A DNA stretch of 64,000 nt, taken from positions 1 to 64,000 of the forward strand of contig BDSL01000074.1 of the NCBI GenBank assembly GCA_003116995.1, read 5' to 3'. The notes below the pieces were generated by a model. The model ran no database searches and was not told the origin of the DNA. It saw only the letters and a list, made by a program, of their open reading frames with translations. The stretch is from Yamagishiella unicocca. Taxonomy: Eukaryota; Chlorophyta; Chlorophyceae; Chlamydomonadales; Volvocaceae. Below are positions 21,678 to 55,200 of this stretch, piece after piece. The stretch's first letter is position 1. Every line of letters starts with the position of its first letter. The translations under genes were made by a program, and so were the position numbers.

Positions 21678-21929
21678 ATGGAGGTGGACGTCAGTTCAGT
21701 GCTGGGCCGCCGTGGCCGCTCGGGCTCGCCGCTCTCGGTGCGGCGCAAGCCGGCCCTACCCTCGCCACTTCTGCTGTTGCCGCCGCCGCCCGTGGGCAGT
21801 GGCGACGGACCCTCTCCGCTGCTGCTGTTGCCGCCGCCGCCCGTGGGTGGTGGCGACGGACCCTCTCCGCTGCTGCTGTTGCCGCCGCCCCCCGTGGGCG
21901 GTGGCGGCGGACCGTCGCCCGCCCAGTAA
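21678..21929 (+). CDS. Short upstream ORF of the LINE (ORF1-like)
   Basis: An 83-residue frame starting MEVDVSSVLGRRGRSGS, with an Arg-rich N-terminus followed by three tandem copies of a 17-residue unit (LLLLPPPPVGGGDGPSP type). It has no RRM, coiled coil or CCHC knuckle, so it is not a standard L1 ORF1 protein. Its TAA stop (21927-21929) is five bases before the ORF2 ATG (21935), a spacing that suits termination-reinitiation. Whether it is translated cannot be seen from the sequence; it may simply be a 5' leader. Confidence 0.45.
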   Translation: MEVDVSSVLGRRGRSGSPLSVRRKPALPSPLLLLPPPPVGSGDGPSPLLLLPPPPVGGGDGPSPLLLLPPPPVGGGGGPSPAQ

Positions 21930-21934
21930 GGCCC

Positions 21935-24900
21935 ATGCCGGCCCGTGGGGGGCGCTCCGCCCCGCGGCCCTGCCGGCCGCTCCGTGTGGGCTCACACAAC
22001 TTGGGGGGCGTGCGGTCAGGCGCCGCCGCTCCCAAGCTGCATGCTGCTCTACTGCTGTGGGCGCAGCTCCGCCTCGATGTCGTCTGTATCCAGGAGACGC
22101 ACTTGTCTACGTTTGGAGATCGGGGGCTATTCGAGCGGCGTCTCCATGCGGCCGCTGGTCACCTCCATGTCGCTCCCTGGCGTGTGGTGTCGTTCCGCAA
22201 TGCTACGCTGGCGGACCCCTGTGCTGGCGTGGCGATTCTCGTTCGCTCGGACCTGATCGCTTCTGGCCGGCTGGTGGCAGCGGCCTCACCACTGCTCCCT
22301 GGTCTCGCGGGTGATCAACCTGCAGTTGCTGCTTCCTCCCCCCCCTCTCGTTCCCTGTCACCGCCGCCCCGCTCACCGTCCCCTGGACCGGCCGCCGACG
22401 CGGGTCCCTCCGCCGCCGCCGTGTCCGTGGCGGCGGCCTCGGGGGTGGCGGCCTCGGTGGCGGCGGCCGCCGCGGCCGCGGCCGTGGCGGCCACGGCGGC
22501 GGCGGTAGCCTCGGCCGCCACGGCGCCCCGTGGTGGGGACGCCGCTGCGCCTCCCCCCGCCGCGGTGGCCCTGGAAGGGGCCGGCCTGGCCGCGGCTGAC
22601 CAGCCTCCGGCGGTCCCGGCCGCGTCCTCATCCGCAGCGGGGCGCCTCGCCACCTACTCCTTCACCTGGCTGGGTCATCGCCTGCACCTCACCACTGTTT
22701 ATCTGCCCGCTAGTAGCTCGGCTTCACGCGCTGCTTTCCTCCAGCAGCACCTGGCGCCTGTGCTGGCGACCAGCACCCCGGGCCAGCATGTCCTAGCCGG
22801 CGACTTCAACTTCGTCGCTGGCCCGTGGGACAGCAGTGCGGGGTCGGCGCGAGTGGTTCGCGACCGCCCTGCCGCTCGGGTCCTCGCGACAGTGGGCCCG
22901 TCGTTGGCTGATGTGCATCGTGAGCGCTTCCCCACCAGCACGGATTACACCCACCTCTACTCCGCCCCCTCCCCCGGTGGTTCCCGCATCGACCGCATCT
23001 ATGTGTCCCGCTGCCTCCTCCCCTTCGTGGCGGGCTCCGCCATTGAGCTGGGCTCGCCTTCCGACCACCGCGTCCCCTGCATCCAGCTGCTGCCCCGGGT
23101 TCCTGCCTCGCGCGGCCCCGGCCTCCGTCGCACCCGCATGGCCTTCTCTGGCCACCGCGACCTCAAGGATCAGCTGCAGGCCTGGCTCGACGCGGCGTTC
23201 GCGGCCATGCCGGCTGAGGGGGAGCACGCTGCCCTGCTGGCGTGGTGGCCGGGCTTCAAACGGCGGCTGGCGGCGGTGGCGGCGATTCTCAATCGCACCG
23301 CTCGCTCTCGGCGCCTGGCCTCGGGCGCGCAGGTGGAGGCAGCCCGAGCCGCCTTGCGGGCGGCCCACCTTGCGGCCGCGATGCCGTCGGCGGCGCCCGA
23401 GGCCGTGGGTGGTGTGGTGGCCGCCCAGGCTGCCTTGGCGGTGGCCTTGCGTGTGGCGGCGGCGGGCGAGGCCGCCCGGGTACGCGTGGCGTGGGTGCGC
23501 GAGGGGGAGCGCCCGTGCCCCGCACTCACCGCCATGATTCACCCACCGCGGTCGTCCCAGGACATTACCGCGCTGCGCGACGCTGCTGGGCGCCTCGTGA
23601 CCGACCCGCGCCAATTGCCCAATGTCGTCGCTTCTTTCTGGGAGCGCATCAGCTGCCTGCCGTCAGGCCTGGACTCGGCGGATCAGCAAGCGGTTCTGGC
23701 AGCTGTCGACGCCCACTCTACTCCGATCTCGCCCGATCTTCGCCCCGAGTTGGGCTCCATCGCAGTCTCAGCAGCGGAGGTGGCGCGGGCCCTGCAGCAA
23801 GCCAAGCCTGGCACGTCCCCAGGCTGGGACGGAATCCCTGTGGATCTCCTCCGGACCTACAGTGGCTGCTTTGTGCCGGCACTGGCCCGCCTTTTCACTG
23901 CTATCGGCCATCTGCGCGCCGTCCCGACGGGTTTCCTGAAGGGTGTTATATCCGTCATTTACAAGGGCCATGATGCGGACCGGGCGGCGGCCGGCGCCTA
24001 CCGCCCCATCACCCTGCTCTGTACTGATTACCGCATTCTGGCGAAGGTCCTCGCCAACCGCCTCAGCCCTGGCCTTTCCGCCGCCATCCCCCTCGAGCAG
24101 TCCGCCTTCCTCCCCGGCCGCTCCATTGGCGCCAACACCCGCTTCCTTCGCTGCCTCCCCCCCCTCCTACACCAGCAGCAACGGAGTGCTCTCATCGCCT
24201 TCTTGGATTTCGCCAAAGCTTACGACACCATTGACCGCTCCTTCCTCTTTGCTGTCATGGAGCGCATGGGTGTTGGGGCCGGTTTCCTGGGCTGGACGCA
24301 GCTCCTGTTGGGCCGTACAGTGGCCATGGCGTCCGTCAACGGCTACATCTCCCGCTCTGTCCCTATCCGGGCCGGCGTCCGGCAGGGCTGTCCCCTTGCC
24401 CCGCTCCTATACCTCTTCGTGGCCCACGCCCTCCTCTGCTGGCTGAAGCGGCACGGTGTTGGCGTGCCGCTGGCCCCGGCGGACCCGGCCAGCCTGGTTA
24501 CCGGCGTGCAGTTTGCTGATGATGCCCAAGTCGCGCTCCCAGATGCAGCTGCAGTACCGCCATTTATCGCCCTCATGGCCGCGTTTGCCCGCGCCTCTGG
24601 CCAGCACCTGAATCCCTCCAAGGTCGAGCTGCTGTGGGCTGGTCGCCAGGTGGCGCCGGCGCCCGCCGCCCCGGCTGCCGTCCTTGCCGCTGCGGTGGCG
24701 GCCGTCGCCGCCCCTGCCGCCGCGTGGACCGCTGCGGGCGGTGCCGCCGCTTCACCCGCCGCCCCGAGCGCCGCTGCTGCCGAGGCGCCGGTGGAGGCCG
24801 CCCCGGCAGGCGCTGGCGCCGCCGCCGTACCTCCTGACGCCCCGGCCGCCGCCGCTGCTGCCGCTGCGCCGGTGGCTGCCGCCCTGGCCGCCGCTGCTGC

Positions 24901-26992
24901 TGCCCCGCAGGCGGCTGCCGCCCCGGCCGCCGCGGCTGCCGTAGCCGCCCCAGCCGCCCCTGCTGGCGCCGCCAGCTCCCCCGTCGCCCGTCACCCGCCT
25001 CGCCTGGCGCGCCCACCAGGGCTGGCTCGCCGCGGTCGTCGGCGTCGTGGCCGCGGTGCTGCAGCTGTCGTGGTCGTGGGCGCCCTCGCCGCAGCCGCTG
25101 GCGCCCTGGCCGCCCCGGGTCCCTCCACATCGCCGTCCCTTGCCGCCACCGCTCCCGGGGTGCCTCGCCCCTCCCCTTCTCCCCCGCCCCCTGCCCTCGC
25201 TGGCCTTCGGATCGTGCCCGCTGCGGTGGCGCTGGGCATCCCCTTCACCAATCCGCCTGCCGCCCCCGTCCTCGATTGGGCGTCACGGATGTCGGAGGCC
25301 CGCCGCCGTCTCCAAAAGATCTCCCGCATGGCCCTGTCGATGTTCGGCCGTGCCACTGCGGCTGCAGCTTATGCTCTCCATATGGCGACGTACCACATGG
25401 AGCACTCGGGGCTGCCGCCGGCGGAGGTCCTTGCTGGCATCATGGCCCTTGTCGCAAAGCTGGTGGATCGGGAGCTAGGCCCTGATGACGCCCAGCGCCG
25501 TTTCACTGGTGTCCCCCTCCGCCTGCTCTCCGGTCATCCCACCATCGGCGGCTTCGGTGTACTGCCCCTTCGGCTGCATGTCCTCAGCCGGCATGCCAAG
25601 TGGAGCCTGACGGTCGCCCGCTCCGCGCTGCAGCCCCCGGCTGCCCGCGCGCCGTGGATCCGGATTGCGGTCTCCTTCCTCTCTACCCTCCACCCTGCCT
25701 TCCGCCCGCTGGCCGTCACCACAGCTCGCCCGGATGGCCCGTGGCTCGGCGCCCCCTTAAGCTTGCCCCCGGACATCCACCGGCTTGCCACGAGCCTCGG
25801 TCACCTCCCCCCCCTGTCTGACGTCGCGGACCCCCCCCTGGCGCCGGGCGTCTGGTGCTTCAACGCGCCGCTGTGGGGCAACCCGCTCCTGCCCAACGCG
25901 GGGGCGCCGGGCCGGCGCCGCCGCCTGCTGACCGTCGGCGACGCCGTCCGGGTGCAGGACGCTATGACCGCGTTTGAGGTGGAGCGCGCCCATGCCCTGG
26001 CGACGACGCCGGGCATGGCCATCTTCAGCCGGCTGGCTGAGCGCTGGACGACGCTCGTACGGCACGAGCTGGCGCCCTCCGAGCTGGCCATGGGTGCGCT
26101 CCAAGATCGCATCGCGGCGCGGGCTGCGGTGGCCGCTCTCCTTTCTGACATCTCGCCCGCATGGCTCGCTGCTGCTCGCCTGGCGCCCGATGGCCCCGCC
26201 CCGCCGTCGCCTGACGAGGTGGATGCTCTCCTCCTTGCTCGCCTGGGGTGGCGGCTGGGTGTGGACGCCGTGCTGCCCCTCACCTCCTTCACCGTCAAGC
26301 TGGGCACCCTGCTCCAGGCGGCGGAACTGGAGCGCCCCAGGCAGGCCTGTCATGCGGCGTATGTGCGGGAGGCGCTCGGGCTGTCCCCTGCTGTGGCTGC
26401 CCCGCCCGAGGCGGCCCTTGTGGCGTTACGCGCGGTATGGCGGCGGTTGTGGAAGCGTCTTAAGTGGGAGCCGCGGTGGAAGGAGGTCCTCTGGCGGCTG
26501 GCGGTTGACGGGGTGCCCATGCCGGGCTCCTCTCACCTCCCGCTGGTCCCACCCGAACCGTGTGCTTGCGGCTGTTACCCCGCTGCAGCGAGTGTGGCCG
26601 AGTCGCCGCGCTTGCATCACTTTTGGTCTTGCCCCCTCGTCCGCCCGCTCTGGGATGAACTGGAAGTCTGCTGTGGGTGCGGGGTCACGCGTGAGCATGT
26701 GTGGTTGTGTGTGTCGCCGGATCCGACCACTGTGCTGCAGTGTGTGTGGGATGTGGTGGCGTTGGCGGCGCTCAACGCGATGGAGTGGGCGCGCCGGTAC
26801 ATACACTCTCATCGGCTCTCCGGCACCACCCTCCCTGCTGCTATGCGTTCTGGCCTCCTTGCTAAGTTCTGGGCCTTGCTGCGGGACTTTGCGGGCTTGG
26901 GTTTGCCCCGCAAGGACTGGGGTGACGTGGGGGTGGACCACCCATTTTTGTTCGTAACCGGGGGTCGGCTCATGTGCGCCGTGCCGCCCTAG
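21935..26992 (+). CDS. LINE ORF2: APE-type endonuclease, reverse transcriptase, C-terminal zinc-knuckle region
   Basis: A 1685-residue protein that nicks target DNA and reverse transcribes its own RNA. An endonuclease/exonuclease/phosphatase domain spans about residues 17-385: QETH with Glu54, GDFN with Asp290 and Asn292, SRIDRIY, and SDH with Asp377 and His378. Reverse transcriptase spans about 600-900: YRPITLL, LDFAKAYD (Asp758), RQGCPLAP, and FADD at 860-863 with both catalytic Asp present. The C-terminal 300 residues hold WRLAVDG, a CACGC cluster and LHHFWSC, the zf-RVT type seen in plant L1s. Two long Ala/Pro-rich stretches are inserted, at about 130-235 inside the endonuclease and about 905-1090 after the catalytic RT motifs. 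No RNase H is apparent. All catalytic residues I can name are intact. Confidence 0.93.
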   Translation: MPARGGRSAPRPCRPLRVGSHNLGGVRSGAAAPKLHAALLLWAQLRLDVVCIQETHLSTFGDRGLFERRLHAAAGHLHVAPWRVVSFRNATLADPCAGVAILVRSDLIASGRLVAAASPLLPGLAGDQPAVAASSPPSRSLSPPPRSPSPGPAADAGPSAAAVSVAAASGVAASVAAAAAAAAVAATAAAVASAATAPRGGDAAAPPPAAVALEGAGLAAADQPPAVPAASSSAAGRLATYSFTWLGHRLHLTTVYLPASSSASRAAFLQQHLAPVLATSTPGQHVLAGDFNFVAGPWDSSAGSARVVRDRPAARVLATVGPSLADVHRERFPTSTDYTHLYSAPSPGGSRIDRIYVSRCLLPFVAGSAIELGSPSDHRVPCIQLLPRVPASRGPGLRRTRMAFSGHRDLKDQLQAWLDAAFAAMPAEGEHAALLAWWPGFKRRLAAVAAILNRTARSRRLASGAQVEAARAALRAAHLAAAMPSAAPEAVGGVVAAQAALAVALRVAAAGEAARVRVAWVREGERPCPALTAMIHPPRSSQDITALRDAAGRLVTDPRQLPNVVASFWERISCLPSGLDSADQQAVLAAVDAHSTPISPDLRPELGSIAVSAAEVARALQQAKPGTSPGWDGIPVDLLRTYSGCFVPALARLFTAIGHLRAVPTGFLKGVISVIYKGHDADRAAAGAYRPITLLCTDYRILAKVLANRLSPGLSAAIPLEQSAFLPGRSIGANTRFLRCLPPLLHQQQRSALIAFLDFAKAYDTIDRSFLFAVMERMGVGAGFLGWTQLLLGRTVAMASVNGYISRSVPIRAGVRQGCPLAPLLYLFVAHALLCWLKRHGVGVPLAPADPASLVTGVQFADDAQVALPDAAAVPPFIALMAAFARASGQHLNPSKVELLWAGRQVAPAPAAPAAVLAAAVAAVAAPAAAWTAAGGAAASPAAPSAAAAEAPVEAAPAGAGAAAVPPDAPAAAAAAAAPVAAALAAAAAAPQAAAAPAAAAAVAAPAAPAGAASSPVARHPPRLARPPGLARRGRRRRGRGAAAVVVVGALAAAAGALAAPGPSTSPSLAATAPGVPRPSPSPPPPALAGLRIVPAAVALGIPFTNPPAAPVLDWASRMSEARRRLQKISRMALSMFGRATAAAAYALHMATYHMEHSGLPPAEVLAGIMALVAKLVDRELGPDDAQRRFTGVPLRLLSGHPTIGGFGVLPLRLHVLSRHAKWSLTVARSALQPPAARAPWIRIAVSFLSTLHPAFRPLAVTTARPDGPWLGAPLSLPPDIHRLATSLGHLPPLSDVADPPLAPGVWCFNAPLWGNPLLPNAGAPGRRRRLLTVGDAVRVQDAMTAFEVERAHALATTPGMAIFSRLAERWTTLVRHELAPSELAMGALQDRIAARAAVAALLSDISPAWLAAARLAPDGPAPPSPDEVDALLLARLGWRLGVDAVLPLTSFTVKLGTLLQAAELERPRQACHAAYVREALGLSPAVAAPPEAALVALRAVWRRLWKRLKWEPRWKEVLWRLAVDGVPMPGSSHLPLVPPEPCACGCYPAAASVAESPRLHHFWSCPLVRPLWDELEVCCGCGVTREHVWLCVSPDPTTVLQCVWDVVALAALNAMEWARRYIHSHRLSGTTLPAAMRSGLLAKFWALLRDFAGLGLPRKDWGDVGVDHPFLFVTGGRLMCAVPP

Positions 26993-32918: not shown

Positions 32919-35900
32919 ATGGGTGCGCTGGTGTGGCGGGGCTGCTGCCAGTCGCGACTGCCGCTGCAGCTCCAATGTCACAGGCGCGCTTGCACTGGTC
33001 TTATTCAGCCTTCTCAGCCGAGCCGCTGGTGGACACCTGCTTCCACACGACAGCGGCGATACCTCCTGGATGTCCTAAAGCTAGCTATTTCGGTCCTGCT
33101 GTTGCTGTGCCTTCCAGCTCCCGCAGCCGGAACTTCAGTCCCTCTGCTACTGGGCCAGCCGCCCCCTACCTTGATGCCGCCACCGCGCCCACCGCCACCG
33201 CTCCCATTGCCGGCGGATTGCCCACAGCAGCTAGCTGACTGTGCACTCAGGGAAGTCGTGGTATACGCAGCGGCAGCCTCTTCGTCACCGCCCCCGAAGG
33301 ACCTGGCGTCTGCAAACTACAGCGCCTTGTTCGGGCCGCCGACCTACGCTGGACCATGTCTGTCGGGCCCGCCAAGCACAAAGACTGACAAGTTAGCTTT
33401 ATGGTCCCTGGCCAGTGGAGATAGCACCTCGCAGCCGGCCCAGGCGGCCCTCACGATAGATTTCGGCTCCGCAGTCTACGCTGTGAGGGTGAGTGCCTCG
33501 CGCTGGCACCGGGTCCGCTGTTCTGGATGTGTATCACCGCTAGCATAATAGAATGCGTAGACGAGCGGCCATGCCAGCTGCGTGTGTCGTATTTAGGCAA
33601 CCAAGCGGCTTGGCTCTGGTGCCGATGCTGCCCGGTACTGCACCGCAGGTTGAAGTGTCTGTGGCGAGCAGCCAGGGTCAGGCCATACGAGGCGTCGTAC
33701 TCCGCCTCGCAGCTGGTGGAGTTGCGAAGGTGAGTTGGCTCGGGGCTCGGGTGTGGATCTCCGTATATGCCGCCTTATGTAGCAGTGCTGGGTAAACCGT
33801 GTCCTTCCATTAACTTGGATAGGCAGTAGGACGATGTGGGCGTGTGTTGCTAAAGACTTCTGGGTTGCGGGTAGTGATAACGGGGCGTGCATGTGCCCCG
33901 CCCTACTCACAAGGAAGCGGAAGAAAAGGATGTGCATGGGAAAAGGAACGCACAAGGGAAAAGGAATGCGCAAGGGAAAAGGAACGCGCGAGGGAAAAGG
34001 AATGCGCAAGGGAAAGGAACGCACAAGGGAAAGGGAATGCGCAAGGGAAAAGGAATGCGCGAGGGAGAATGATAAATGTATTTGCATGGGCTGGAGCGGG
34101 GTGCGGTGCGGCGCGGGCATGTGGAGGGCTGGCGGGATGCGCTGGTGCTTGGTAATGCGTACCCACGTGGTGGCGGTGGTGTACTTGTCCGGCCTCCGCA
34201 CGTGGCCTGCGCACCAAGAGTTGAATCGTTCGGGCCATGCGCGGCACTCGTAAGGGCGTACTCCCTCCGGCTGCTCTAGGGCACGGGGCCAACGCCCCAG
34301 TGGGGGAAGGGGGGGGGGTTGCAAACAGACTGTAAGTGGGGATCGGAACCCAGAATGCAGTTGTTGTGTAAAGGCAGTGTTAACGGAAAGGTCAGGGTAG
34401 CGGTAGTGTACGTCGAACAGGCAGAATTGGCGGGATACCGGTCATTGTCGCCATCACGCTCAGTCCAGAGCGAGATACAACAGCGGACGTATGGATACAC
34501 ACTGTACTGTGTATCCATAGACCAACGGTGTGATGGGGCCCACGGGTTGCTGCATTGCGCTATGCGCAGGCAGGCGGGGCTGCATCATATCTGGGGCTGC
34601 GCAAACCTACTAGGGCGCAACGTGGGTTTAGGCCGTAGGGTCGGCGGGTGAGGAGTCGGGCATACATGCCGTGCTGACTGCGGACGTGCGTGCACTGCAC
34701 TGGCTTCCGTTGCACTTATTTAGGGAGCCATCCCACGGGCGCAGGATCCGGGCGCATGGTTGGGTGCAGTCGTACGGCATGCATGGCACGAAGAGACGGT
34801 GTTGGGGCTGTTCCAGAGTGCCTAACTGAATGGGTTTTTGGTCATCGTCACAAACATGGGGACGAAACGCGGCGTTCCTACTGGGTTTCTTGGCCTGGCG
34901 CGGTCCTTAACATGCAGTTTCGCGGCTTACTGCTAACTGAACAGACGCGGGCGGTGCATTGACACATACGGGCATTGCAACATTCTTCCCGGTAAGCCTA
35001 AGACACACAGGCGCTCGTAACGTGGGCCGACATGGGCAGCACGTATCATCAGAAACATCGCTAATGCTCTCAAAACGGTAAAGCGAGGCAGCGCACACAG
35101 CTGACTCGGCTGCACAGACCCTCCCTGGAGCCCCGCGTGTATGCAAATGCTGTAGTTGCAGACAACGTGCTTGCGCTTTGCCACCGCAGCAGGTGGCGTG
35201 TCCGATGGACGTGAGCAAGGAGTGTCTGGGAGGCAGCGCAGCCGAAGTCAGCTACACCTACGTGTGCAGCATGGCGGATGACGTCAGCTTGGGAATCATC
35301 GCGGACAGCCTGGTGGATGCCGTCACGCTCCAGGTGTCCCGCTGGGCCGTCATTGACGCAGTTGCGTTGGTTGGCTACTCTCCATTGTCTTCCGCTACAC
35401 TGACACCGCTGTCGCCGGAGCCGCCATCACTGGAGCCGCCATCACCTCGACCACAGTCGCTGCTGCCGCCGGCACCGAAGCCACCATCGCCGCTCCCACC
35501 ACCACCACCGCAGCCGTCGCCACCACCACCGATGCCACCGTCGCCGCTGCCACCATCACCTCCACCACCACCGAAGCCGTCGCCACCGTCGCCGCTGCCA
35601 CCATCACCTCCACCACCACCGAAGCCGTCGCCACCGCCACCAGTGCCACCGTCGCCGCTGCCACCGTCACCTCCACCACCACCGAAGCCGTCACCACCGC
35701 CACCGGTGCCACCGTCGCCGCTGCCACCGTCGCCGCTGCCACCGTCGCCGCTGCCACTGTCACCTCCACCACCACCGAAGCCGTCACCACCGCCACCGGT
35801 GCCACCGGTGCCGCTGCCACCGTCACCTCCACCACCACCGAAGCCGTCACCACCGCCACCGGTGCCACCGTCGCCGCTGCCACCGTCGCCGCTGCCACCG

Positions 35901-38900
35901 TCGCCGCTGCCACTGTCACCTCCACCACCACCGAAGCCGTCACCACCGCCACCGGTGCCACCGTTGCCGCTGCCACCATCACCTCCACCACCACCGAAGC
36001 CGTCACCACCGCCACCGGTGCCACTGTCGCCGCTGCCACCGTCACCTCCACCACGACCGCAGCCGTCACCACCGCCACCGGTGCCACCGTCGCCGCTGCC
36101 ACCGTCACCTCCACCACCACCGAAGCCGTCACCACCGTCGCCGCTGCCACCATCACCTCCACCACCACCGAAGCTGTCACCACCGCCACCGTCGCCGCTG
36201 CCACCATCACCTCCACCACCACTGAAGCCGTTGCCACAGCCACAGGTGCCACCATCGCCGCTGCCACCGTCACCACAGCCGCCATTGCCGGAGCCACCGT
36301 CGCCGATGCCGCTGTCACCACAGCCGCTCTTGCCAGGGCCGCCATCGCCGATGCCGCCGACACAACAACCGCTGGAGCCGGAGCCACTGTCACCACAGCC
36401 GCCATCTCCTGAGCCGCCAGCCCCCCTGCGGCCGTTGCCAAGACCGCCAGCCCCGTCGCCGCTGCCGCCATCACCAGAACCGCCATCACCAGTGCCGCCA
36501 GCCCCATCACCGCCGTCGCCGCTGCCGCTATCGCCGGAGTCGACGACGGCTCCGGAGCCACCGTCACCACTGCCGCCATCTCCAGAGCCGCCATCACCAG
36601 AACCGCCGTCACCAGTTCCGCCAGCCCCATCGCCGCCTCCGCCGCTGCCGCCGACGCCACAGCCACCGACGCCAGATCCGCCATTGCCGGAGCCGACGAC
36701 GGCACCGGAGCCACCATCACTGCCGCCAGCCCCCCTGCGGCCGTCGCCAGTGCCGCCGGCCCCATCGCCGCCATCGCCGCTGCCGCCATCGCCACAGCCG
36801 CCGACGCCAGAGCCGCCATCGCCGGAGCCGACGACGGCTCCGGAGCCGCCGTCACCACTGCCGCCATCTCCAGAGCCGCCATCACCAGAACCACCGTCAC
36901 CAGTGCCGCCAGCCCCCCTGCGGCCGTCGCCAGTGCCGCCGGCCCCATCGCCGCCATCGCCGCTGCCGCCATCGCCACAGCCGCCGACGCCAGAGCCGCC
37001 ATCGCCGGAGCCGACGACGGCTCCGGAGCCGCCGTCACCACTGCCGCCATCTCCAGAGCCGCCATCACCAGAACCACCGTCACCAGTGCCGCCAGCCCCA
37101 TCGCCGCCGCCGCTGCCGCCGCCCCCGCTGCCGCCGTCGCCACAGCCACCGACGCCAGATCCGCCATCGCCGGAGCCGACGATGGCATCGGAGCCACCGT
37201 CACTGCCGCCAGCCCCCCTGCGGCCGTCGCCAGTGCCGCCAGCCCCGTCGCCACTGCCGCCATCACCAGAGCCGCCGTCGTCGGTGCCGCCAGCCCCATC
37301 ACCGCCGTCGCTGCTGCCGCCATCGCCACAGCCGCCGACGCCAGAGCCGCCATCGCCGGAGCCGACGATGGCTCCGGAGCCGCCGTCACCACTGCCGCCA
37401 TCTCCAGAGCCGCCATCACCAGAACCGCCGTCACCAGTGCCGCCAGCCCCATCGCCGCTGCCGCCGCCCCCGCTGCCGCCGTCGCCACAGCCACCGACGC
37501 CAGAGCCGCCGTCGCCACAGCCACCGACGCCAGAGCCGCCATTGCCGGAGCCGACGATCGCATCGGAGCCACCGTCACTGCCGCCAGCCCCCCTGCGGCC
37601 GTCGCCAGTGCCGCCAGCCCCGTCGCCGCTGCCGCCATCACCAGAGCCGCCGTCGTCGGTGCCGCCAGCCCCATCGCCGCCATCGCTGCTGCCGCCATCG
37701 CCACAGCCGCCGACGCCAGAGCCGCCATCGCCGGAGCCGACGACGGCTCCGGAGCCGCCGTCACCACTGCCGCCATCTCCAGAGCCGCCATCACCAGAAC
37801 CGCCGTCACCAGTGCCGCCAGCCCCATCGCCGCCGCCGCTGCCGCCGCCCCCGCTGCCGCCGTCGCCACAGCCACCGACGCCAGATCCGCCATTGCCGGA
37901 GCCGACGATCGCATCGGAGCCACCGTCACTGCCGCCAGCCCCCCTGCGGCCGTCGCCAGTGCCGCCAGCCCCGTCGCCGCTGCCGCCATCACCAGAGCCG
38001 CCGTCATCAGTGCCGCCAGCCCCATCGCCGCCGTCGCTGCTGCCGACAGTGCCACAGCGGCCGACGCCAGAGACGCCATCGCTGGAGCCGACGACGGCTT
38101 CGGAGCCACCGTCACCACTGCCGCCATCACCAGAGACGCCATACCCCCTGCGGCCGTCGCCGCTGCCGCCATACCCGTCGCCGCCATGGCCACAGCCGCC
38201 CACGCCAGAGCCGCCATCGGCGGAGCCGACGACGGCTCCGGAGCCGACGTCACCACTGCCGCCATCTCCAGAGTCGCCAGACCCCCTGCGGCCGTCGCCA
38301 GTGCCGCCAGCCCCGTCGCCGCTGCCGTCATCACCAGAACCGCCGTCACCACTGCCGCCATCACCATCCCCACCGTCGCCGCTGCCGCCATCGCCACAGC
38401 CGCCCACGCCAGAGACGCCATCGCCAGAGCCGACGACGGCTTCGGAGCCACCGTCACCACTGCCGCCATCTCCAGAGACGCCAGCCCCCCTGCGGCCGTC
38501 GCCAGTGCCGCCAGCCCCGTCGCCGCCGTCGCCGCTGCCGTCATCACCAAAACCGCCGTCACCACAGCCACCGACGCCATCGCCACTGCCGCCATCGCCG
38601 GAGCCGACGACGGCTCCGGAGCCACCGTTACCGCTGCCGCCATTACCAGAGACGCCAGCCCCCCTGCGGCCGTCGCCAGTTCCGCCAGTCCCCTCGCCGC
38701 CGTCGACGCTGCCGCCATCACCAGAACCGCCGTCGCCAGAGATGCCAGACCCGTCGCCGCTGCCGCCATCGCCACAGTCGCTATCGCCGTTGTTACCATT
38801 ACCGGAGCCGCCGTCACCGCTGCCCTTATCACCAGAGACGCCAGCCCCCCTGCGGCCATCGCCAGGGCCGCCATCCCCGTCGCCGCTGCCGCCATCGCCA

Positions 38901-41900
38901 GAGCTACCATCGCCAAAGCCGCCGTCGGTGCTGCTGCTGTCACCAGGACCGCCGTCGCCGCTGCCGCCATCGCCGCTGCCGCCAACACCACAGCCGCCAC
39001 CGCCGGAGCCGATGACGGCTCCGGAGCCACCGTCACCGCTGCCGCCATCACCAGAGTCGCCAGACCCCCTGCGGCCATCGCCAATGCCGCCACCACCGGA
39101 GCCACCGTCGCCAATGCCGCCACAGCCGCAACCACCGACACCAGAGCCGCCATCGCCGGAGCCGCTAACCCCGCGGACGCCGTCGCCAATGCTGCCATCC
39201 CCCTCGCCGCCGTCGCCACAGCCGACGTCACCATTGCCACAGTCACCGGCGCCGCTGCCGCGATTGCCGGAGCCGCCGCCACCACAAGCGCTGTTGCCGG
39301 AGCCGCCGCTGCCGCCATTGCCGAAGCCGCCGTTGCAGCTGCCGCCGACACCCCCTCCTCCATCGCCGGAGCCGCCGTCGCCTGGGCCACCATTTACACA
39401 GCCCCCACCGCCTCATCCACGGTTTCCGCTGCCGCCATCTCCACAGCTGTCAGCACCCCAGCCGCCGTCGCCAGATCCACAGCCAACGGTGCCGCCTTCA
39501 CCACAGTCGCTGGCACCGCTGCCGCCATCTGCAGGGTGGCCACCACTACAGCCGCCGGCACCCCTGTCGCCGGCACCGCTGCAGCCGGCACCGGATCCCC
39601 CAGAACCGCTGCCATCATCACCACAGTCGCCATCACCGTTGCCGCCGGCAACACAGTTACCAGGGCCGCTGCCGCCGGCACCGATGCCGCCATCACCACG
39701 GCCGCCGACACAGCTGCAGCCAGCAACGATGCCGCCATCACCACAACCGCCGGCACCGGAGCCGCCCGCACCGCTGCAGCCGGCGCAACAGCCACCACAA
39801 CCACTGCCGCCGGCATTGCAGCCACTGACACCAGAACTACCGGCAAGAGAGCCGCCAAAACTGCAGCCGCCGGCATCAGCGCCACCACGCTTAGAGCCTT
39901 CCCTTCCTCCGGCGACACCTGCAAACCAGCCGCAAGAAAACCCACAACTTCCACCACCAAACGAACCTACCGTACCCCCCTTACTACCACCTCCAGCCGC
40001 GCTGCCGCCGCCCTCACCCGCGCCACAACCACTGGCACCAACGCCATTAGCACCTTCAGCGCCCCCACCTCCCCCCCCACCGGCGAGGCCTCCTTCGTTC
40101 CCAACCCGACCCCCAGAACCACCAACACCGCAGCCACCACCAGCACGGCCGCAGCCTGCCACACCACCACCAACACGGCCGCAGCCTGCTACACCACCAC
40201 CAACACGGCCGCAGCCTGCTACACCACCACCAACACGGCCGCAGCCTGCTACACCACCACCAGCACGGCCGCAGCCTGCTACACCACCACCAACACGGCC
40301 GCAGCCTGCTACACCACCACCAACACGGCCGCAGCCTGCTACACCACCACCAACACGGCCGCAGCCTGCTACACCACCACCAACACGGCCGCAGCCTGCT
40401 ACACCACCACCAGCACGGCCGCAGCCTGCTACACCACCACCAACACGGCCGCAGCCTGCTACACCACCACCACAGACAGCACTACCATCACTGCCAGGGT
40501 TACCACCAGTGTCACCGACATCTTCAGCTCCCGTAGCGCTGCCTGTATCACCGGTTCCCGCACAGCCGCCGCCAGCGCAACCACCGCCAGCCAGGCCGCC
40601 GGCGCCACCGACACTGCCAACGCCGCAATCCTCCCCCTCGGTCGTGAAGCCTGCACCGCCGGCTGCACCTTTAGGACCCCCTCCACCGGCTGCAGCCACA
40701 CCCGTGGACTCGGGTGCGGCACCTCCTGGCCCTTCCCCGCCACCACCGCGGCCACTCTTTCCCGCCGCACCACCGCGGTCCCCACCGCCACGCCCTCCGC
40801 CGAACCCGCCCCCTCCGCCCTTTCCCCCGGCGTACGTGTTACTCGGGATACCACCCGATATGGTGGACGAGGCCACTCCGTACAGCCTCCTGTCCGTGAG
40901 TCGCGACTTGGGCCTGGTGGGTGTGGAGCTGCAGCTGGACACCGCCGTACTGTCGTCCTTCTTCCCTGGAGCTACCGCGGTGGTGGTGCTGGGCTGGAAT
41001 ATTGGGGCGCTGGTGCAGCTGGTACCTAGGGAGTCGGGGTCGCTGCAGCAAGCGGAGGTATGCAAGGGCGCTGTGTGGTGTGATGTTGTCGGGATGGCTA
41101 AGGATATTGTCCGGTGTTGAAACTGCGTGCTCTAGGGGGCTTACTGGGCTGGGTCTGAGGCATGCGGCTGTGTTGACGCCATATTGGATGTAGGCAGGAG
41201 ACGGCTGTTTCAACGATGTTAGGCAAAAGACAGCCGTGATAAGGCCGTTCGATAGAGCACGGCCGTGCTTGCGCCGCGATTGCTTGATGGTGGGGCCAAC
41301 ATAGACGGCTCATTTTTAGCGGCCATGGCGATCAGCCTGCCACCTGCCTGGCCGCCTTTCCGCCGCCTGCCGCTGTGTGCCAAGCTAGCCTTCTGGCTGA
41401 CCGTCTACCCAACCTCGCGCTGCATCCTTACGCGGCCGCCACCTTTGCTCATCTCCACGCACATTCCCGCAGGACTCGTGCGACGCCAGCCTGCTCGCCG
41501 CCATCCTGGTCGACCTCAGCGGCCGCCTGCAAGTGCCCCTGGCTCAGCTCAACATCACCTGCACCAGCCAGGCGGGCGGGACCGAGCTGGTGCAGCCTGG
41601 GGCCTCCACCAGCAAGACCTCCACCGGCCTTCCGACGGATACCGACGAGGGCAGCGCTACCCAGGAGCGCCGGCGGGCGCTACTGGCTGCTGCTGCTGCT
41701 GCTGCTGCTGCTGCCGGCACAGACGTGGCCGCTGCCGCCGCCTCCGGCGGCAGCGGCTCTGCAGCCGAGTGCGAGAGCGCCCCGGCGGCCAAGGGAGTCG
41801 TGATCACGAGCTCCGTGGGGGCGAAGGACGGCTGGGTGGCGGAGAGCCCGCTCGCGGGCCAAGTGTACGGCTCGCTGCAGGACGTCGCGGCGGCGGAGAA

Positions 41901-44900
41901 GTCGTCGGTGGCGATGTGCCTGCCGCCGCCGGAGGAGCTGCAGGTGTCGACGCAGGTGAGCCGCGGTTGGGCCGGGGGCGCTGGGAGGCGTGCCGCTGCC
42001 GCAGGCTCGCCCAAGGGTGGTTGTTGGTGTTCTCTGGTTCCTCTGCACACCAGGTCGACAGTGCTCGGCGAGTGAACCTCATCGCTAGGACTTGCTCGTC
42101 ATGGATACGATGGGGTGCAGTCGCTCACTGCCGGAACGCCAAAGCCCATGACGGCGCCCTCTGCGTTGCCTGTTTCATGTTGCCTGTTTCATGCTGCGTG
42201 TTTCGTGTTGCCTGTTTCATGTCGCCTGTTTTGGCTATTTCCCAGGTCCGGGTGACCTACCAGGTGCCCCTCAGTCGAGCCGGCTCAGATTTGTACGCCG
42301 CGGCATGCGCCGGCAGCGGCGCCCGTACAACTGAGAACGGTGGCGGCGGTGGTTCAGAAGCGGCTGCGCTGGGGCTCAATGGCGTAGCTGGATGCAGCAT
42401 GGTGTCGTCAGCAGACGCGCAGGTGTGTTTCGGGTGGGCGCGCCAGGGACGGCGGTTGATATTGGGTTGCAGCTTGCCGGGGTTCCCTTCTGTAACAAAC
42501 GCCGCACCTGAGGAGGGAAGCTGCGAGCGAGGGACACGGCAGGGGCAAGCTTGCTAGTGCGAGCGAGGGACTGGGATGCTTGAGAGAGGGGCGGGGCTAG
42601 GGGTTTTGCGTGTCGTTGCGAAGGGGTTGGAGCCGTTGTTGTTGTTGTTGGTGGTGGTGGTGGTGGCAGAGGGCAGAGGCAGAGGCAGCGAGAGGGCGGG
42701 TCGCGCGGTCTAGTGTTGTTGCACTCCCACGGGCACGCCAACATCTAGGCACAGGGTCGAGGTTAGAGCTCACATAACCATGTTCCTCTGTGTGCGTGTG
42801 TGTGTGCGTGTGTGTTACATCATCTGGCGGTGTGTATGTGTGGGTATGTGGGTACGTGTTAGAGATGTATGGCCCACTGTTCGGTGGCGGACGCTGTCCT
42901 GATTAGAGGGGTTCGTCCCTGCCGTCGCGGGGAGCAAGGCGCGACTTTCCTACCATGGTGTCACGCCGCGAATATGCTTTCCAAGTCTCCTCCATGGAGC
43001 ATCGATTATGCTTTCTCCTCCATTGAATATCGAATATGCTTTCCAAGTCTCCTCCATTGAATATCGAATATGCTTTCCAAGTCTCCTCCATTGAGCCCAG
43101 TCTGGCCCAGTCCGGTCGAACGCAGGACCGCAACTCGACCGACGGCGGAGGCGGAGGCTCCTCGTCCGCCGCGTCCACGATGCTGGCTGCGATTGTGTCG
43201 GCAGTGGTGGTCGGCTCGGCGGTCATTGTGGCGCTTGCAGCGATCGTGGCGGTTCGTCGCCGGCGCCGTCGGAACCGTGAGGTTCAGGAGCTGGCCGTTG
43301 ACACTGCAATGGTGGGTCGCACACTCGCAACCGGCGGACCGTGGGGTCTAATTTGGAGTGACCACAGCTGACCATGGCTGAGACTCTCATGAGCACCCGA
43401 TGTACACGCACCCCACTCAGACGGCCCCTTGGCACGAACCCACTCGCCATATCCTCACCTTGCACCTACGGCGCTTGCGCATCCGATACCCACCTGCCTC
43501 TCCCCGCAGGCGCTCGCGCAGCCCTCGTACATAAACGTGTACGGCAGCTTTGCGCCGCCGCGGACGCCCCGCAACGCCACCGTGGGTCTGGCGGTGCGGC
43601 TGCCGCTGGGGGCGCGGCAGCAGACACGCCGACCCACGGGGCGGCGCGCCGCGGTCCAGCTGGGAGCCGGCCGAGAGAAGGCATCTTCGGACGACGACGG
43701 GAAGGAGCACGCTTCAGGCACGCAGGGAGGCAACCAACTGGGCCCAGCCGCGGGCAGCAGCTCCAGCCGCAGCCGCAGTCGCAGCCACAGCCGTTCGCCA
43801 ACGCCCCCGCGCAGCCGAGGCCGCGCGCTCGCGCTGTTTGAACACGCGGCGCCCAACAGCCCGCAGCCTGCCGGCGCGCGCAGCCGGCGGCTGGCGGGCG
43901 CGTCGCGTTTCCGTGCCGCCGCGCTGACGGCACGGCTGGCGGCCGTGGGCCACCACGCCATGTTGTCAGGCGTCAGCGAGAGCGCCACGGCGACGTCGGT
44001 GACTGCGGTGAGTGGCGTCAACCTAGGAGCCCGCTGCCGCTCCACCCCTAGCGCCGGCCGCATGCCGTCGGAGAGCCCCTCTCGAGAGGAGTCGTTCATC
44101 ACGCCGGCTATGCTCCGAAGCCGCGCCGCTGCTGCGAAGACGGCGGCGACGGCGCTGCTGGGAGGGGCGCCGGGGGTAGGGATAGGAGGGGCCATGCCGT
44201 CCCGGCCGGCAGTGACGCGCACCTCTACGGGGCCACGTCACACCCACATGGGGTCGCACTCGCAGCTGGCGCGGAAGTCGATGCAGGTGGCGGCGGCCGG
44301 GGCGGTCGGGAGGTCGTCTGCCTCGGGCCTGGTATTGGAGGCCGCAGGCGGCACGCATGGCGGCAGCGGCGACGTCACTGGGAGGCCTAGCGCCGAGGGC
44401 AGCTGGGAAGCTGCAGCTGGCGGCGGTCGTGGCAGCGGCAGCGGCGGCGGCGGCAGCGGTGGCGGCAGCGGCAGCGGTGAACCCACGACGTCGCATTACG
44501 TCTTGGACAGGTTGCTTGGCACTGTTACAGGAAGCAGCGGAGGCCCCAGCCGGCTCAGCGGCAACGGCTTTTCGGAGGAGCGCGACAACGAGGACGCAGC
44601 TGGCGGGCGAGGCAGCCCCAACTCTCTGTCCTCGTACCCGCACCAGCTTGCGGCGCGCCGCGTCGAGGGGGTGAACCACCTGCCGCAGGTCCGCGTAAGG
44701 CCCTCGGAGCTGACCGCCTTCGACCGGTTGCGTCTGCGGTCTAAGATACTGGCCGACTGGGTGCCGCCCAGCCACAGCGGCTCCGCGGGAAATGCGCCCA
44801 CCAGGCTGCAGCAGCGGTCCGGACCTGACGATGAGCCCGCAGGGGCAGTAGCGGAGATGGCTTCGGAGCCGAGGGAAGTGCACACGTCAGTGGAGAGCAG

Positions 44901-45450
44901 CGGCAGCCGCGTTCTGTCGCCGCTGGCGCTGTCGCCCAAGTGGTTCCGGCAGCGCCACCTGCAAGCGCACCTGATGGACACGGGCGAGGAGGTGGTGTGC
45001 GGCACGGCCGCCAACTCCGAGGACGCCGACGAGGCGGGTGCGGGCGATGTCACCTGGGCCGCGCCCAGGCCCGATTCGGCGGCGTCCTCGCTTCAACACA
45101 AGGCCAAGTTCCAGCTGGCGGCCCCCGTGGCGCCTGCGCCGGACCCAGCCAGCCTGGAGCCGTGGAACCTCGCGCCCCCCCGTGCGGCCCAGCTGCACAC
45201 GGGCACCAGCACGAGCATGGACGGCCGCAGCCACGGCCGCAGCCGGCTGGGTAGCACGGCCAGGAGCTGTAACGTCGACGCGTGTAGTACCATGCCTGCA
45301 GGGCGGTTAACCGAGCCTTACCGGAACAGAGGCCGCACGATACCAGAGGCATCGCAGCCCGGCACGCCGCGCTCGGCGCCGTTGCCGGTCCTCGTGCTGC
45401 CGGCGCCGCTACCGAACCGGCCGGACTCCGGGACTGAGGAGGCTGACTAG
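32919..45450 (+). CDS. Giant transmembrane hydroxyproline-rich protein with a galactose-binding-like ectodomain
   Basis: Seven exons fit: 32919-33488, 33649-33729, 35190-41057, 41473-41955, 42246-42422, 43126-43311, 43510-45450. All six introns are phase 0, with GCAG or CCAG acceptors. Length is about 3101 residues. The start is unsure: the frame is open to 32631 and a first exon may be missing. A hydrophobic segment (LAISVLLLLCLPAPAAG, about 53-71) could be a signal peptide or anchor. Exons 1-3 then encode a beta-sandwich pattern (ANYSALFGPP, LWSL, ALTIDFGSAVYAVR, WAVIDAVALVGY) like the galactose-binding-like module of FBXL4-type proteins. Residues about 286-2101 are Pro-rich SPPPP/PPSPEPPSP repeats, typical of volvocine wall glycoproteins. 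Exons 4-5 are a globular segment with a few Cys and a poly-Ala run. Exon 6 has a 25-residue transmembrane helix (about 2412-2436) followed by RRRRRR. Exon 7 is a Ser/Gly/Arg-rich cytoplasmic tail without a recognised domain. It probably links wall and membrane; function is inferred. Confidence 0.7.
33914..34075. repeat. Purine-rich minisatellite in intron 2
   Basis: About nine units of roughly 17 bp of the type AAGGGAAAAGGAATGCGC, inside the 1460-bp second intron of the giant gene. Frames rich in Lys/Glu/Gly across it are artefacts. Confidence 0.85.
34490..34519. repeat. Perfect 12-bp inverted repeat in intron 2
   Basis: TATGGATACACA at 34490-34501 and its exact reverse complement at 34508-34519, separated by six bases. 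It can form a cruciform or RNA hairpin. No function is evident. Confidence 0.85.
40141..40472 (+). repeat. 30-bp tandem array coding (T/A)RPQPATPPP
   Basis: Eleven near-identical 30-bp units within exon 3 of the giant gene, each encoding a ten-residue RPQPATPPP-type unit. Thr or Ala precedes Arg in the order A,T,T,T,A,T,T,T,T,A,T, which suggests duplication of blocks of four or five units. Near identity at DNA level implies recent expansion or gene conversion. Confidence 0.92.
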
Positions 45451-47129: not shown

Positions 47130-50100
47130 TTAACTGCCCCACGCAGACTGCCTTGCGATGGCCTGCATCCGCGCTTTCAATGCCAGGACATCCGCCCCAA
47201 GCCCACCCACCGCCGGCGGCGCCACAGCCGCTGCGGGCGCGGGTGAGATCGCCATGCTCTCATTTTGACCCTGGCCAACGCCATGCTGCTGCGGGGATAC
47301 AAGGGCTCCAAAAGCATCAAATATAGCATCTTTCGAATGGCCGGCAGCGCCCATCCCTAGCCAGCCTCCCCCCAAGCCCTTGGGGCTCAATCCCATAGCA
47401 GGATCCTTATCTGTATCTGCCATGAGCACGTCGTCACCGTTGTCCCTGTCTGCCCCATGTGCCGCGGCGCCTCCCACAGATGTGGGGTCCACGTCGACGT
47501 CGCTGCCGTCCGCCGCTCCGCCGCAGTAGCTGCCCCACGCACTGCCCGCGTCTCCGAGCACTCCTGTCGTTGCCACAACAGCAGGCGCCACAGTAAGTGG
47601 GCTGCATGGCGTCGCACCGCCCCCGAAAATCAGCGCTTGGCTGACCATCTCGCCCTCCGCGGCGAGGAGGTTGAAGTCTGCATCGACATCGGTCTCAGCC
47701 GCAGCATGCGTGCAGGCGGCGGCCGTTTCTGCAGGCGCACCTACGGGTGCGGTCGCAGTGGACCCGAAGCCAGAAGCAGTGAAATCAACGCAGGTTGCGT
47801 GCTCGACGGCACTGAGGTTCCTGACGGACCGAGAATGGACCGGGTCTTTCTCGTCATCGTCATCATCAAGCAAGCGGGCGAGGTTCACTCGATGGCCATG
47901 GCTGGCAGGAGGCCCCGCCATTGCCCAAGCTGTAGCGGAGTCAGTCGCCAACGGTGCGGAATGCGCGTTACCGTAGGGCATCGCTGACGGGGCCAAGTGG
48001 GTCGCGGCAACGGTGGCAAAAGCGCCTTGGCTGCCGGTGCTGTCAATCGCCATGTGCGCGGAGAGGAACATCTGGGCATCCAGCCGCTGCGTCGCCAAGC
48101 TGCCGTCTGCAGGTGGCTGCTGCTGCGTTGGATTCTGACCCGCCTGCCGCGCGAAGTGCCCGTCAAGTGCTCGCCTGGTAGACGGGGAGGCGCCGCGGTG
48201 CTCCAGCATGTGCTGAAGCAGCCAACCCTGCGACGCCGCGGCGCCAGGATCAGGTTCCGGAGCGCCCCATGGCTGTGACATGGAGCCGGTCGGTCCGGCG
48301 GCAGGTGCGGCACCCGCGTTGCCGTTGGGCGACATCGCAATCCACGACGCCGACGGCCAGGCCCCAACGAAGCCGGCATCGTTGCGCCCTTGAGCGTCCT
48401 TGCCGGACTCGGCTGTAACGGGTTGTTGGAGTGGGACGTCATCACGACCCGCGACGTCGTGGCGTGCAGTGTGGATGGGACTCAACGTGTTGGCGACCCG
48501 CAAACTGGTCATCAGGGCGTCATACGCTCCTTGGCTCGAGGCAGAGCCGGCATGCACCACTGGGTTTGAGGCGGAGCCGGCATGCACTGGGCCCGCAGGG
48601 CGGTTGGTTGCCGCGCCAGTCGCGAATGCTGGTGGACTGAGGGACGCGAAGGCGCCATTGCCGCCTACGCTGCCAGCAGCTGACTGCGCCGAAGTCGGGA
48701 TATGTGCTGTGGAGGTACCCGCTGCGTTGGCGGCTGATGCGGAAGCGTCACCAAGCCGTAGGCTGCGGATGCGCGCCTGCAGCCTGGCAAAGTCGTCCGG
48801 CTCGCCCCGACCGCTGTCAGCTGGCGCGGCTGTAGTGGACGTGGCCACCACCTGCGAGGCCCATGACGGCGCGGCTGCTCCTGCGCTCGCAGCCGCCCCT
48901 GACGCCATGTGCACACCCGTCGACGAGGGGCACGGCGATCCGACCACAACCGCCGACTGCGCCCCGCTTGCCACCAGCCCCTCATACGCCACAGCGAGTA
49001 CGTTGGTCTGAGTAGCTGAGCCGGGCTTAGGGCTGCTCATCGAGGCGCGGTTGATGATCCGAGTCGGTTGTGTCAGTGCAGCAGGCAGCGCCAGGCGAGG
49101 CCCGAGGTCCAGGAAGTCGTCGTCCAGCGCGCCGTAGCCTGCGGCGTCACACCTGGCCGCCAGCGCTCGGGAGCTCTCCATCCGGAGTGTCCGCAACAAC
49201 GGCCCTGCGGCGGCCGACAGCCGGCCAAGAGGGCAACTGCTGAGTTGTGCATCGCGCGGACAAATGTGGGAACGATTGAAAGGCTGTTTGCAATAGGAGA
49301 GGCCCCGGCCGCATTACTAGGGCTAGGGTGTCGCCCGCCATGCCACCGCGGAAGGGAAGGGTGGCTGTAAGGAACGTTTGGAAACGTAAAACGAAGGGCG
49401 TCTGAGTGCGCCGTGCACGTCGGACGCGCCTAGCTGTGCATTTTGTGAAGGTGGAATTCTGCATGAGCAACCGGTTACCATGGAGAGCGCGTAGGCAGGT
49501 CCCTCCCGACCCCGGATGATGCGGCCTGCGCCACAGGGTGCGATCGGAACTAGCAGATAGAGGCGCAGCTCATCGGCTGGACGTGAACGCGAGCAGGCGT
49601 ACCATATGTTATAGCCTGGTCCTGCAACTTGCGGCTAAGTTGCGCAATCTGTCGGCTGGTATTCTCGTGAAGCTGCAGCTGGTGTGCTGCGTGTGCGGCG
49701 TGGCTGCTCGGATGGCTTGGTGGTTGCAGCAGCGGCGGTGGGCCTGCATGATTCGAGGAAAGACAGTGAGCCAGGATACGCGGTGATGCATTGGAAGCAC
49801 CCAGAGCTACCCTTTCGTAGTTAGTCTAACGCGCGGTGGCTGAACCAACAAAAACAATTGAAAACGGGCTGACTTCTTCCTGTTCAAAAACGGCATCGCA
49901 TCATATAGCATCTCCGCATCTCCTGTGTAGCTCACTATGCAGCCCCACCTGCATTCTCTCCCGCCATGGCCAATTGCGTCACGTGAGGCGCCAGTGAGCT
50001 GAGCAGGGACGAGAACGACATGAAGGCCCCCACGATGTTGTCGGGGCCAAACGGCATTAGCATGTTCTTCTGCTGCCGCCGCTGCGGCTGCTCAAAGGCT

Positions 50101-52263: not shown

Positions 52264-55200
52264 ATGTCGTCGGACTCACTGCAAGAGCTGCTGGCCGAGA
52301 TCAAGGCCCACCCGGATGGCGCAGATCTGTTGATCACTGCTTTTTATACAGCAGCGCACCACTACCGGCGAAGTACAAGTGAGCGGAAAGCGGTTGCCTT
52401 GACTCTTTGAACCAGGATTTGCAGCAACCCGCTGGCGCAACTTATTCATGCATAAACCCCCTGGTCAACCGCCTGTGCGTGCCCCCCGTCCAAACCTTCA
52501 CTACCGGCCGCTCCCTCGGGATCAACTGCCCGACTCCCCTCCAGTTCGCAACTCTGCCTCATCTCCTCCGCCCCCACCTCACATTCCTATTGCGGATACG
52601 CTAAGGAACACCAACGCACCCTTTCCCACCACCTCCCACTGCGCGCCCTCCAACCTGCTCCTCGTAGCCCAACGCCCCAACACCCGCCCTGCCGTCGCCC
52701 TCCCACAGCTTCCCCGATCACACCCATCCCAACACACCGTAAGCCCCCCCCCACCTTCCGCAAACACCATCCAAAACCCTTACCACACCCTCACGGCATG
52801 CCACCGCACGCGACCCGCCGCCACCCACACAGTATGCACGCCCTTCCCTACGGAAGTCTTCCCGCCCGCTCCCGACACCAAGGAGAAGGACTTCGGAGCG
52901 CTCCAGCATGCGCTGGCTGAGCTGCCGGCGGTGCACTCGCTGCTGGGCGGGGATGACGTGGCGCGCGGGTTGAAGCCGCAGGTCGTGGGGCTGCTGCAGT
53001 GGCTGCTGCACAACCCGGCTCGGCGGCGGCGGTTCTCCCTGGCGCCCCTGGGTGAGATGGTACGACAGCTGCGGCAGCGCGGCGGCAGCAGCAACTGGCA
53101 GCTGCCGGCGTTCTCCGGGAACAGCTCCCCGGCGTTCGTACTTCGAGCGCACGAGGAGAACGCACAGGTGCGTTGCTGCAGGGTTTCGCACGGGTGCCAT
53201 GGCCGGCGAAGCGTGACCGGCGTGAAGGCCCCCCCGGATTTGTGTGCCTGGCAAGTAGGGATTTGCTTCCCCGGGATGCGGGTGCGGGCGGCGGAGGCGG
53301 GTGTGGGGAGGCGGGGGGCGGGTGCGGAGGCGGGTGTGGGGAGGCGGGAGGCGGGTGTGGGAGGCGGGGGGCGGGTGCGGGTGTGGGGAGGCGGGAGGCG
53401 GGTGTGGGGAGGCGGGGGGCGGGTGTGGGAGGCGGTTGTGGAGGCGGTTGTGGGAGGCGGGGGGCGGGTGCGGAGGCGGGTGCGGAGGCGGGTGCGGAGG
53501 CCCGTGTGGAGAGGCGGGTGTGGGGAGGCGGGAGGCGGGTGTGGGGAGGCGGGGGGCGGGTGTGGGGAGGCGGGGGGCGGGTGTGGGGAGGCGGGGGGCG
53601 GGTGCGGAGGCGGGTGTGGGGAGGCGGGTGTGGGAGGCGGGGATGAGAGCGCGGTATGTCACATGTATGCTGCACGGAGGCGCGCAGGCCGGCGGTCTGC
53701 GCGGAACAGCAGCAGCAGCGGCGGAGGAGGGGCACATGCCGCGGTGCACGCGGTGTGTTTTGGGAATGTTGTCTTGCAGTACCTGCCAGCTGCACACAAC
53801 AACGCCACCATGCCCGCAGGCGGCGGCACGCGCCCCTCCGCCCGTATCCCGCCACCGTGTGAGGATGATGCTGCGTCATGGTCGTACTTTGTACCGCGCG
53901 TGGATCATGCCACGTCACGGTCGTATTTTGTACCGCGTCTGGATCATGCCACGTCATAGTCGTCCTTTGTACCGCATCTGGATCATGCCACGTCATGGTC
54001 GTACTTTGTACCGCGTCTGGATCATGCCACGTCATGGTGGTACCTTGCACCATGACGGAACATCTCCGACTGCAAGCTGGCAGCTGTGGAGTCCCGCTGA
54101 GCGGCCGCTCACTAAATGTATCGTGCACCGCCCCCGCCACACGTGTCCCCGCAGGAGCCCTTCTCGCACAGCGCCATCGCCTACCACGGCACCCACCTGG
54201 AGAACCTGCACTCGATCGTGCACACCGGGCTGCAGAACCTCAGCGGCACACGGCTGCAGCGCACCGGCGCGAACTTCGGAGCGGGGATATACATGAGCAC
54301 CAACTACGACACGGCTTTCAGGCGCGCTGCGCGCGGGGGGGAAGGGGAGGCGAGGCGAGGCGAGGGGAGGGGAGGGTTGCACGGAAAACCCGTGTACGAA
54401 AGAAGAACCGGTTAGGGGAAGGGGGATTTCGAGGAAGACCCGTGGATGCGAGGAAACCCGTTTAGGAAAGACGCTTCGAGGTACCCTGCTGGAGAACTGG
54501 GGTGAGGTTACGAAAGACGGTGGTCGTATGCCGACCTTCGGCGGCAAAGCTAAATCGGCGGCGGTTAGACGAAATGAAGCCAGGATCCCGCGTGGTGCTA
54601 GCTGGAGAACTGGGGGAGGCGGCGAGCGATGGGAGAGCGGACAGCGCGGCAAGGCCCCGACCCGGCGAATACCGACCATAATGTTGGCCGGAGCCGAGCC
54701 GAGCCGCCATGGGGGACTGGAGACCGCGAGAGCCTAGACGCAGGTCCCGATGCCCGCACACAAGAACGCAACGACTAACCAAAAGCGAACAGGAACAGGG
54801 CCCGACCCGGCGGCGGAACTCAGCTGGCCCGGGCCCAGAGCGGGCGGCGATGGCGGTCGGCGTGAAGCATGCGGGCAGGGGGCACCGGCGGGCGTCAGGA
54901 ACAACACCCATTTGCGGAACGTGTGGGCAGAGGCCAAAAGGTCTTGGGCGGGCGGCGGTGGGTGGCGATGCGCTGGGGCTCAGCGGCCGCGGCGGAGCGC
55001 GGGGTCCGGTGGGCGCTTGCGGCTCCCGAGGAGGGCGTGCCGAGCTCTTCACTCTGGTTCCTGGGAGTTTAGAGCGGACGGGTTTGGTAGCGCGCGCCTC
55101 CTGTTTTGTGCGCCTCCTGCTGGAACAGCATTGCCTTGCCCGCCACCCCCGTCACTCAACCCGTCACTCAACCCCGTCACTCAACCCGTCACTCAACCCC

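Follow-up and report, generated by a model that had tools for sequence, protein, structure and literature searches.

A predicted seven-exon gene for a very long protein

The window, a 64,000-nucleotide stretch of Yamagishiella unicocca DNA (contig BDSL01000074.1, positions 1 to 64,000), carries on its forward strand a gene of seven predicted exons spanning 32919–45450 (Table 1). All exon borders are GT–AG, all joins are in phase 0 and every exon length is a multiple of 3. The spliced product is a chain of 3106 residues with a single stop, at its end, which confirms the seven exons and approximately 3100 residues proposed in an earlier note on this DNA. Splice sites, here and at all other loci described below, are predictions called by eye from the consensus.

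Table 1. Position and content of the exons and of other features in the window
Feature	Position	Strand	Content
Open frame	21533..26992	+	1819 aa; RVT_1 E 8e-26, Exo_endo_phos E 4e-10; frame of a non-LTR type retrotransposon
Exon 1	32919..33488	+	aa 1–190: N terminus, signal-like hydrophobic segment aa 49–67, first part of distal head
Exon 2	33649..33729	+	27 aa of head
Minisatellite	33923..34073	+	within intron 2
Exon 3	35190..41057	+	end of head, Pro-rich rod aa 283–2098, start of membrane-proximal module
Exon 4	41473..41955	+	module cysteines C1–C4 (C2176, C2203, C2273, C2322); RRR at aa 2239
Exon 5	42246..42422	+	module cysteines C5 and C6 (C2355, C2384)
Exon 6	43111..43311	+	predicted transmembrane helix, ~aa 2417–2441, then RRRRRR, 2442–2447
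Exon 7	43510..45450	+	646-residue tail rich in Ser, Gly, Ala and Arg; probably disordered and in the cytoplasm
Open frame	47130..49313	-	727 aa, downstream of the gene; Pfam search negative at E≤0.01
Minisatellite	54682..56613	+	about HSTPSLNPVTQPR-type repeats; several frames open

The rod comprises 1816 residues, 53% of them proline, and holds 102 PPSP motifs, two tyrosines and no cysteine. Hydrophobicity along the 3106-residue chain is maximal at 2421–2439, within the predicted helix, and at 49–67; the next peak (1.71) lies at 2144, inside the module. From the first arginine of the RRRRRR run to the C-terminal end there are 665 residues. The earlier description of about 1800 proline-rich residues, a helix, six arginines and a tail of about 665 residues therefore agrees closely with the gene model.

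In the proline-rich exon an open frame is by itself weak evidence: three other frames are open as well, each over more than 1300 codons (1332, 1345 and 1538). Mismatches between repeat copies, which are not independent of one another, number 189, 139 and 248 at codon positions 1, 2 and 3 of the Pro frame, and this excess at position 3 favours the Pro frame as coding. Stronger evidence for one gene than frame openness comes from relatives in the genome, which have the exons in the same order and most splices at matching places. Moreover, the join between exons 1 and 2 is backed by one of these relatives (C131), in which both pieces lie in one unbroken frame. The start codon of the window gene is uncertain, since its hydrophobic segment starts approximately 48 residues in, whereas a relative (C118) has a short MRFRPPALLLLLLLQLSLALV start.

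We considered whether two adjacent genes, one for a secreted hydroxyproline-rich glycoprotein (HRGP) and one for a separate membrane protein, had been wrongly joined. TGTAA is the algal poly-A signal; it occurs in intron 5 at 42491, as a fusion of two genes would have it. Intron 2, exon 7 and the 3′ flank contain it as well. Against such a fusion, the module starts inside the Pro exon and the same order recurs at seven loci, so we regard it as very improbable. The product is most likely a single, very long protein that crosses the membrane once, its head and Pro-rich rod lying on the outer side and its floppy tail within the cell. The single chain from the outside through the membrane to the cytoplasm, as first proposed for this gene, is well supported by its relatives in the same genome.

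Relatives in the genome and the six-cysteine module

At six further loci in the same genome the module again stands between a Pro-rich frame and a helix with an Arg-rich run behind it, with mostly matching splice sites. Together with the window gene, the Pro-rich frame, the six-cysteine module, an Arg run between its second and third cysteines (C2 and C3), the helix and the Arg-rich run behind it are found at seven of the seven loci read, a count that is a description and not an independent test because the features were defined on these same loci.

C131 is a full relative, with a head, a rod of 534 residues (44% Pro), the module, a helix, RRRRRGR and a tail. It splices at places matching those of the window gene and lacks the window gene's intron 1; its rod, head end and module start lie in one exon, as they do in exon 3. 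C51 has a rod of at least 957 residues, the module, a helix, eight arginines and a tail, and its contig ends within the rod, while at C118 a matching head lies near the start of its contig. We infer that C118 (L033, contig start) and C51 (L034, contig end) could be halves of one gene, the break between them probably falling in the Pro-rich repeat. C136 and C73 show this arrangement of Pro-rich frame, module, helix and Arg-rich run. C20 and C74b, with Pro-rich frames of 1970 and 1686 codons, respectively, were found with a consensus query and read from the end of the Pro-rich frame through the module to the helix region; C74b (L074, C74:430501–432700) is a second family member on the window's contig, ~385 kb away. 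The boundary between exons 4 and 5 is in the same place at six of the seven loci read. At C136 module and helix share one frame, and C74b has no intron after the first module piece.

Queries from C20 and C74b pointed to a likely eighth member, C53:212477–214065, which matches C20 at E 1.3e-38 and in part falls within an open frame listed at 2809 codons. Given further weak matches to the helix region (for example, C11 at E 4.5e-4, C36 at 8.9e-4 and C59 at 0.0025), the family may be larger than eight loci. Five candidates were set aside as members, L035 (C57, E 9.1e-5), L040 (C100), L038, L039 and L041, because their frames were Ala-rich or limited to the helix, or their matches weak. In a same-genome search at E≤0.001, the window gene's tail and exon 4 matched only themselves. 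Protein-database searches, with candidates limited to 0.55–1.75 times the query length, gave no homologue among 7987, 7992 and 7977 scored candidates; their volvocine coverage was uncontrolled and we do not claim absence elsewhere.

With the helix removed, the module scored 30–120 bits against the relatives' profile in eight tests, in each of which none of 1000 local shuffles reached the real score; the best shuffle score was 10.0 bits. The module is homologous across all seven loci read. Six cysteines recur at these loci (C131 carries extra ones), and the spacing between the fourth and fifth is 33 or 34 at all seven. Each locus also has a run of at least two arginines between C2 and C3, the nearest cysteine being taken as the third at C131. 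In permutations with the cysteines fixed, at most four of the seven loci had such a run and none of 5000 reached seven of seven, for an interval that was picked after inspection; C51, C136 and C73 have more than one Arg run in the module region. The run between C2 and C3 is perhaps a protease site.

We rejected known module families on the results of Pfam and PDB profile searches. The window module without its helix matched no Pfam family at E≤10, with no SEA, WSC or other juxtamembrane domain. With the helix included, the modules of five members gave 16 weak families, mostly membrane-segment models, the best being VPDSG-CTERM (E 0.0023, in two of the five); the window member's weak matches were all under the family cut-offs. 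Searching the PDB with a module profile gave only unconvincing hits, the best at E 0.021 over profile positions 272–355, and a PDB sequence search with exon 4 gave ten chance matches only (best E 0.17).

Processing of the module is plausible because both processing sites and cleavage are reported among Chlamydomonas pherophorins: in the portion of PMC6313938 available to us, most have peptide-processing sites and 7 of 11 were seen cut. Six Hyp-rich wall proteins in the same portion seemed uncut, with no cleavage site mapped, which would count against cleavage of the module. A cut there could make the protein a delivery precursor, freeing head and rod as a wall component and leaving a stub in the membrane. 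The Arg run in seven of seven modules suits such a precursor, as does SAG1, whose cleavage yields a membrane polypeptide and the agglutinin, its N-terminal part (PMC4362204, in part). However, the six recurring cysteines around the Arg run could hold the two halves together, and a stub leaves the long tail unexplained at all four loci with the tail read. We think such a delivery precursor unlikely.

The head, the rod and the tail

The head of the window gene matches the C118 frame (49%) and the C131 frame (37%), where a second piece matches at E 1.6e-5. Being common to all three, it is therefore a real module. Its earlier assignment to a galactose-binding type found no support in sequence searches: the spliced head matched no Pfam family at E≤10, galactose-binding or F5-8C-like families included, and in PDB sequence searches it gave one chance match only (E 0.67), with no match for exon 1. 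C73 (L071/L037) starts with a signal-like stretch, and the ectodomain ahead of its rod looks different, a hint that the head type may differ among family members.

Polyproline-II rises by 0.31 nm per residue. If the rod of the window protein takes up this conformation, it could reach a length of up to ~560 nm.

Tails were read at four of the seven loci and measure 441 (C131), 646 (window), 852 (C136) and 1036 residues (C51), with the tail starts of C51 and C136 placed by eye. All are rich in Ala, Ser, Gly, Pro and Arg. Among the six pairwise alignments, between 6 and 196 of 200 shuffles matched or beat the real score, the lowest figure belonging to C51–C136, uncorrected for six pairs and obtained with a shortened C51 tail. 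Homology among the tails was rejected, the alignments being unconvincing against shuffles. At E≤1 no Pfam family matches the window tail, and the tail's AlphaFold model, predicted from the single sequence, has a mean pLDDT of 35.9 with no residue at 70 or above, which lends weak support to a disordered tail.

Tails that do not align convincingly, and a window tail with no Pfam match, would suit a passive, mucin-like membrane coat or spacer that takes no part in signalling. Against this, the tails stay long despite their sequence change, and the window gene, C131 and C118 have a distal head in common. A purely passive coat seems to us improbable.

Known surface proteins and a working reading

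Pherophorins have a Hyp-rich rod between globular domains (PMC6313938, in part), and the window protein likewise has a rod of Hyp-rich type with globular-type parts around it. We rejected its membership of the pherophorins because PF12499 had no match in the pieces scanned, which lay outside the rod: neither in seven pieces at E≤1 nor, with the limit at E≤10, in the spliced head or module. With 150 of 183 candidates scored, PF12499 has at least 161 matches in the 133.4 Mb genome, none of those listed falling on the window's contig, and matches were found in 0 of 14 control genomes, a distribution in keeping with a volvocine alga. To our knowledge, pherophorins are secreted and have neither helix nor tail. 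For these proteins the earlier statement that known volvocine wall HRGPs lack a large cytoplasmic part stands.

It does not stand for MAR1, a protein of Chlamydomonas gamete adhesion that a review, in the sections available to us, describes as single-pass, with 1018 residues, a long cytoplasmic tail and five PPSPX repeats (PMC8777248). Single-pass, long-tailed HRGPs are thus already known in kind. The window protein is also single-pass, with a PPSP-rich ectodomain and a long tail, but has 3106 residues and 102 PPSP motifs. The sexual agglutinins SAG1 and SAD1 are HRGPs whose membrane part the same review describes as multi-pass, whereas the window protein has one strong helix besides its N-terminal segment.

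Adhesion between gametes or cilia, in which the head would bind a partner on the other cell as in MAR1 or SAG1, stays a serious rival because of these two proteins (PMC8777248 and PMC4362204, each in part). MAR1 shares the layout at a smaller scale, and a diverging family of many members suits recognition. The likeness to MAR1 is one of described layout, and we hold adhesion to be possible though rather doubtful.

Presumed wall sensors and other surface proteins offer further comparisons. Chlamydomonas has a wall-integrity response for which plasma-membrane sensors are presumed, and the candidates named in the part of PMC6704257 at hand are Hyp-rich TRP-family proteins, likened there to yeast Wsc1 and Mid2, and SRCR proteins that carry Hyp-rich domains. 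The idea of a Hyp-rich receptor at the cell surface is therefore not new in itself. The yeast wall sensors Wsc1 and Mid2 are themselves single-pass proteins with an O-mannosylated, Ser/Thr-rich ectodomain that acts as a spring (PMC6704257); they belong to an unrelated lineage, and the comparison with the window protein is one of working only. No WSC or other Pfam domain was found in the window ectodomain pieces scanned. MST3 resembles the window protein in its large extracellular region, which is Pro-rich in most of its relatives, and in its membrane tether, but it has a PKD-like membrane domain of channel type (PMC11015965, in part) where the window protein has a single helix and gave no sign of such a domain in the hydrophobicity and Pfam scans. 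The parts of PMC10762512 and PMC8289870 available to us hold nothing on proteins of this kind. Among open-licence papers we found no account of a very long rod combined with a six-cysteine, Arg-run module at eight or more loci in a genome; the same family may already be annotated or named otherwise elsewhere.

The anatomy predicted here is that of a type I membrane protein and is repeated in the relatives. We favour, with a probability of roughly 0.5, a single-pass (type I) hydroxyproline-rich cell-surface protein that tethers the matrix to the membrane and possibly reports the state of the wall; this reading and its rivals overlap, and their probabilities need not sum to 1. In such a tether, a hydroxylated and glycosylated polyproline-II rod would carry the head well out into the wall or matrix. 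A subtilisin- or furin-like protease might cut the module at the conserved Arg run, and disulphides would then keep its halves together or release them under load. The helix and the Arg run that follows it would anchor the protein in the plasma membrane, while the disordered tail would bind cytoplasmic partners. A role as a wall-integrity sensor is possible; adhesion or tethering would suit the anatomy equally.

A broader and more tentative reading, which we find doubtful, takes these proteins for a dedicated family of the volvocine algae. Its members may be two-chain receptors, matured by proteolysis and held by disulphides, whose proline rods form a physical link between wall or matrix and cytoplasm. 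They would then be a counterpart, evolved independently, of the mucins of membranes and the wall sensors of yeast and, conceivably, the missing sensor of the algal wall-integrity pathway. The Arg run between recurring cysteines makes a sharp prediction of how these proteins would mature. Finally, a family whose members are predicted to run in one chain from wall through membrane to cytoplasm supplies specific genes for work on the presumed wall sensors.
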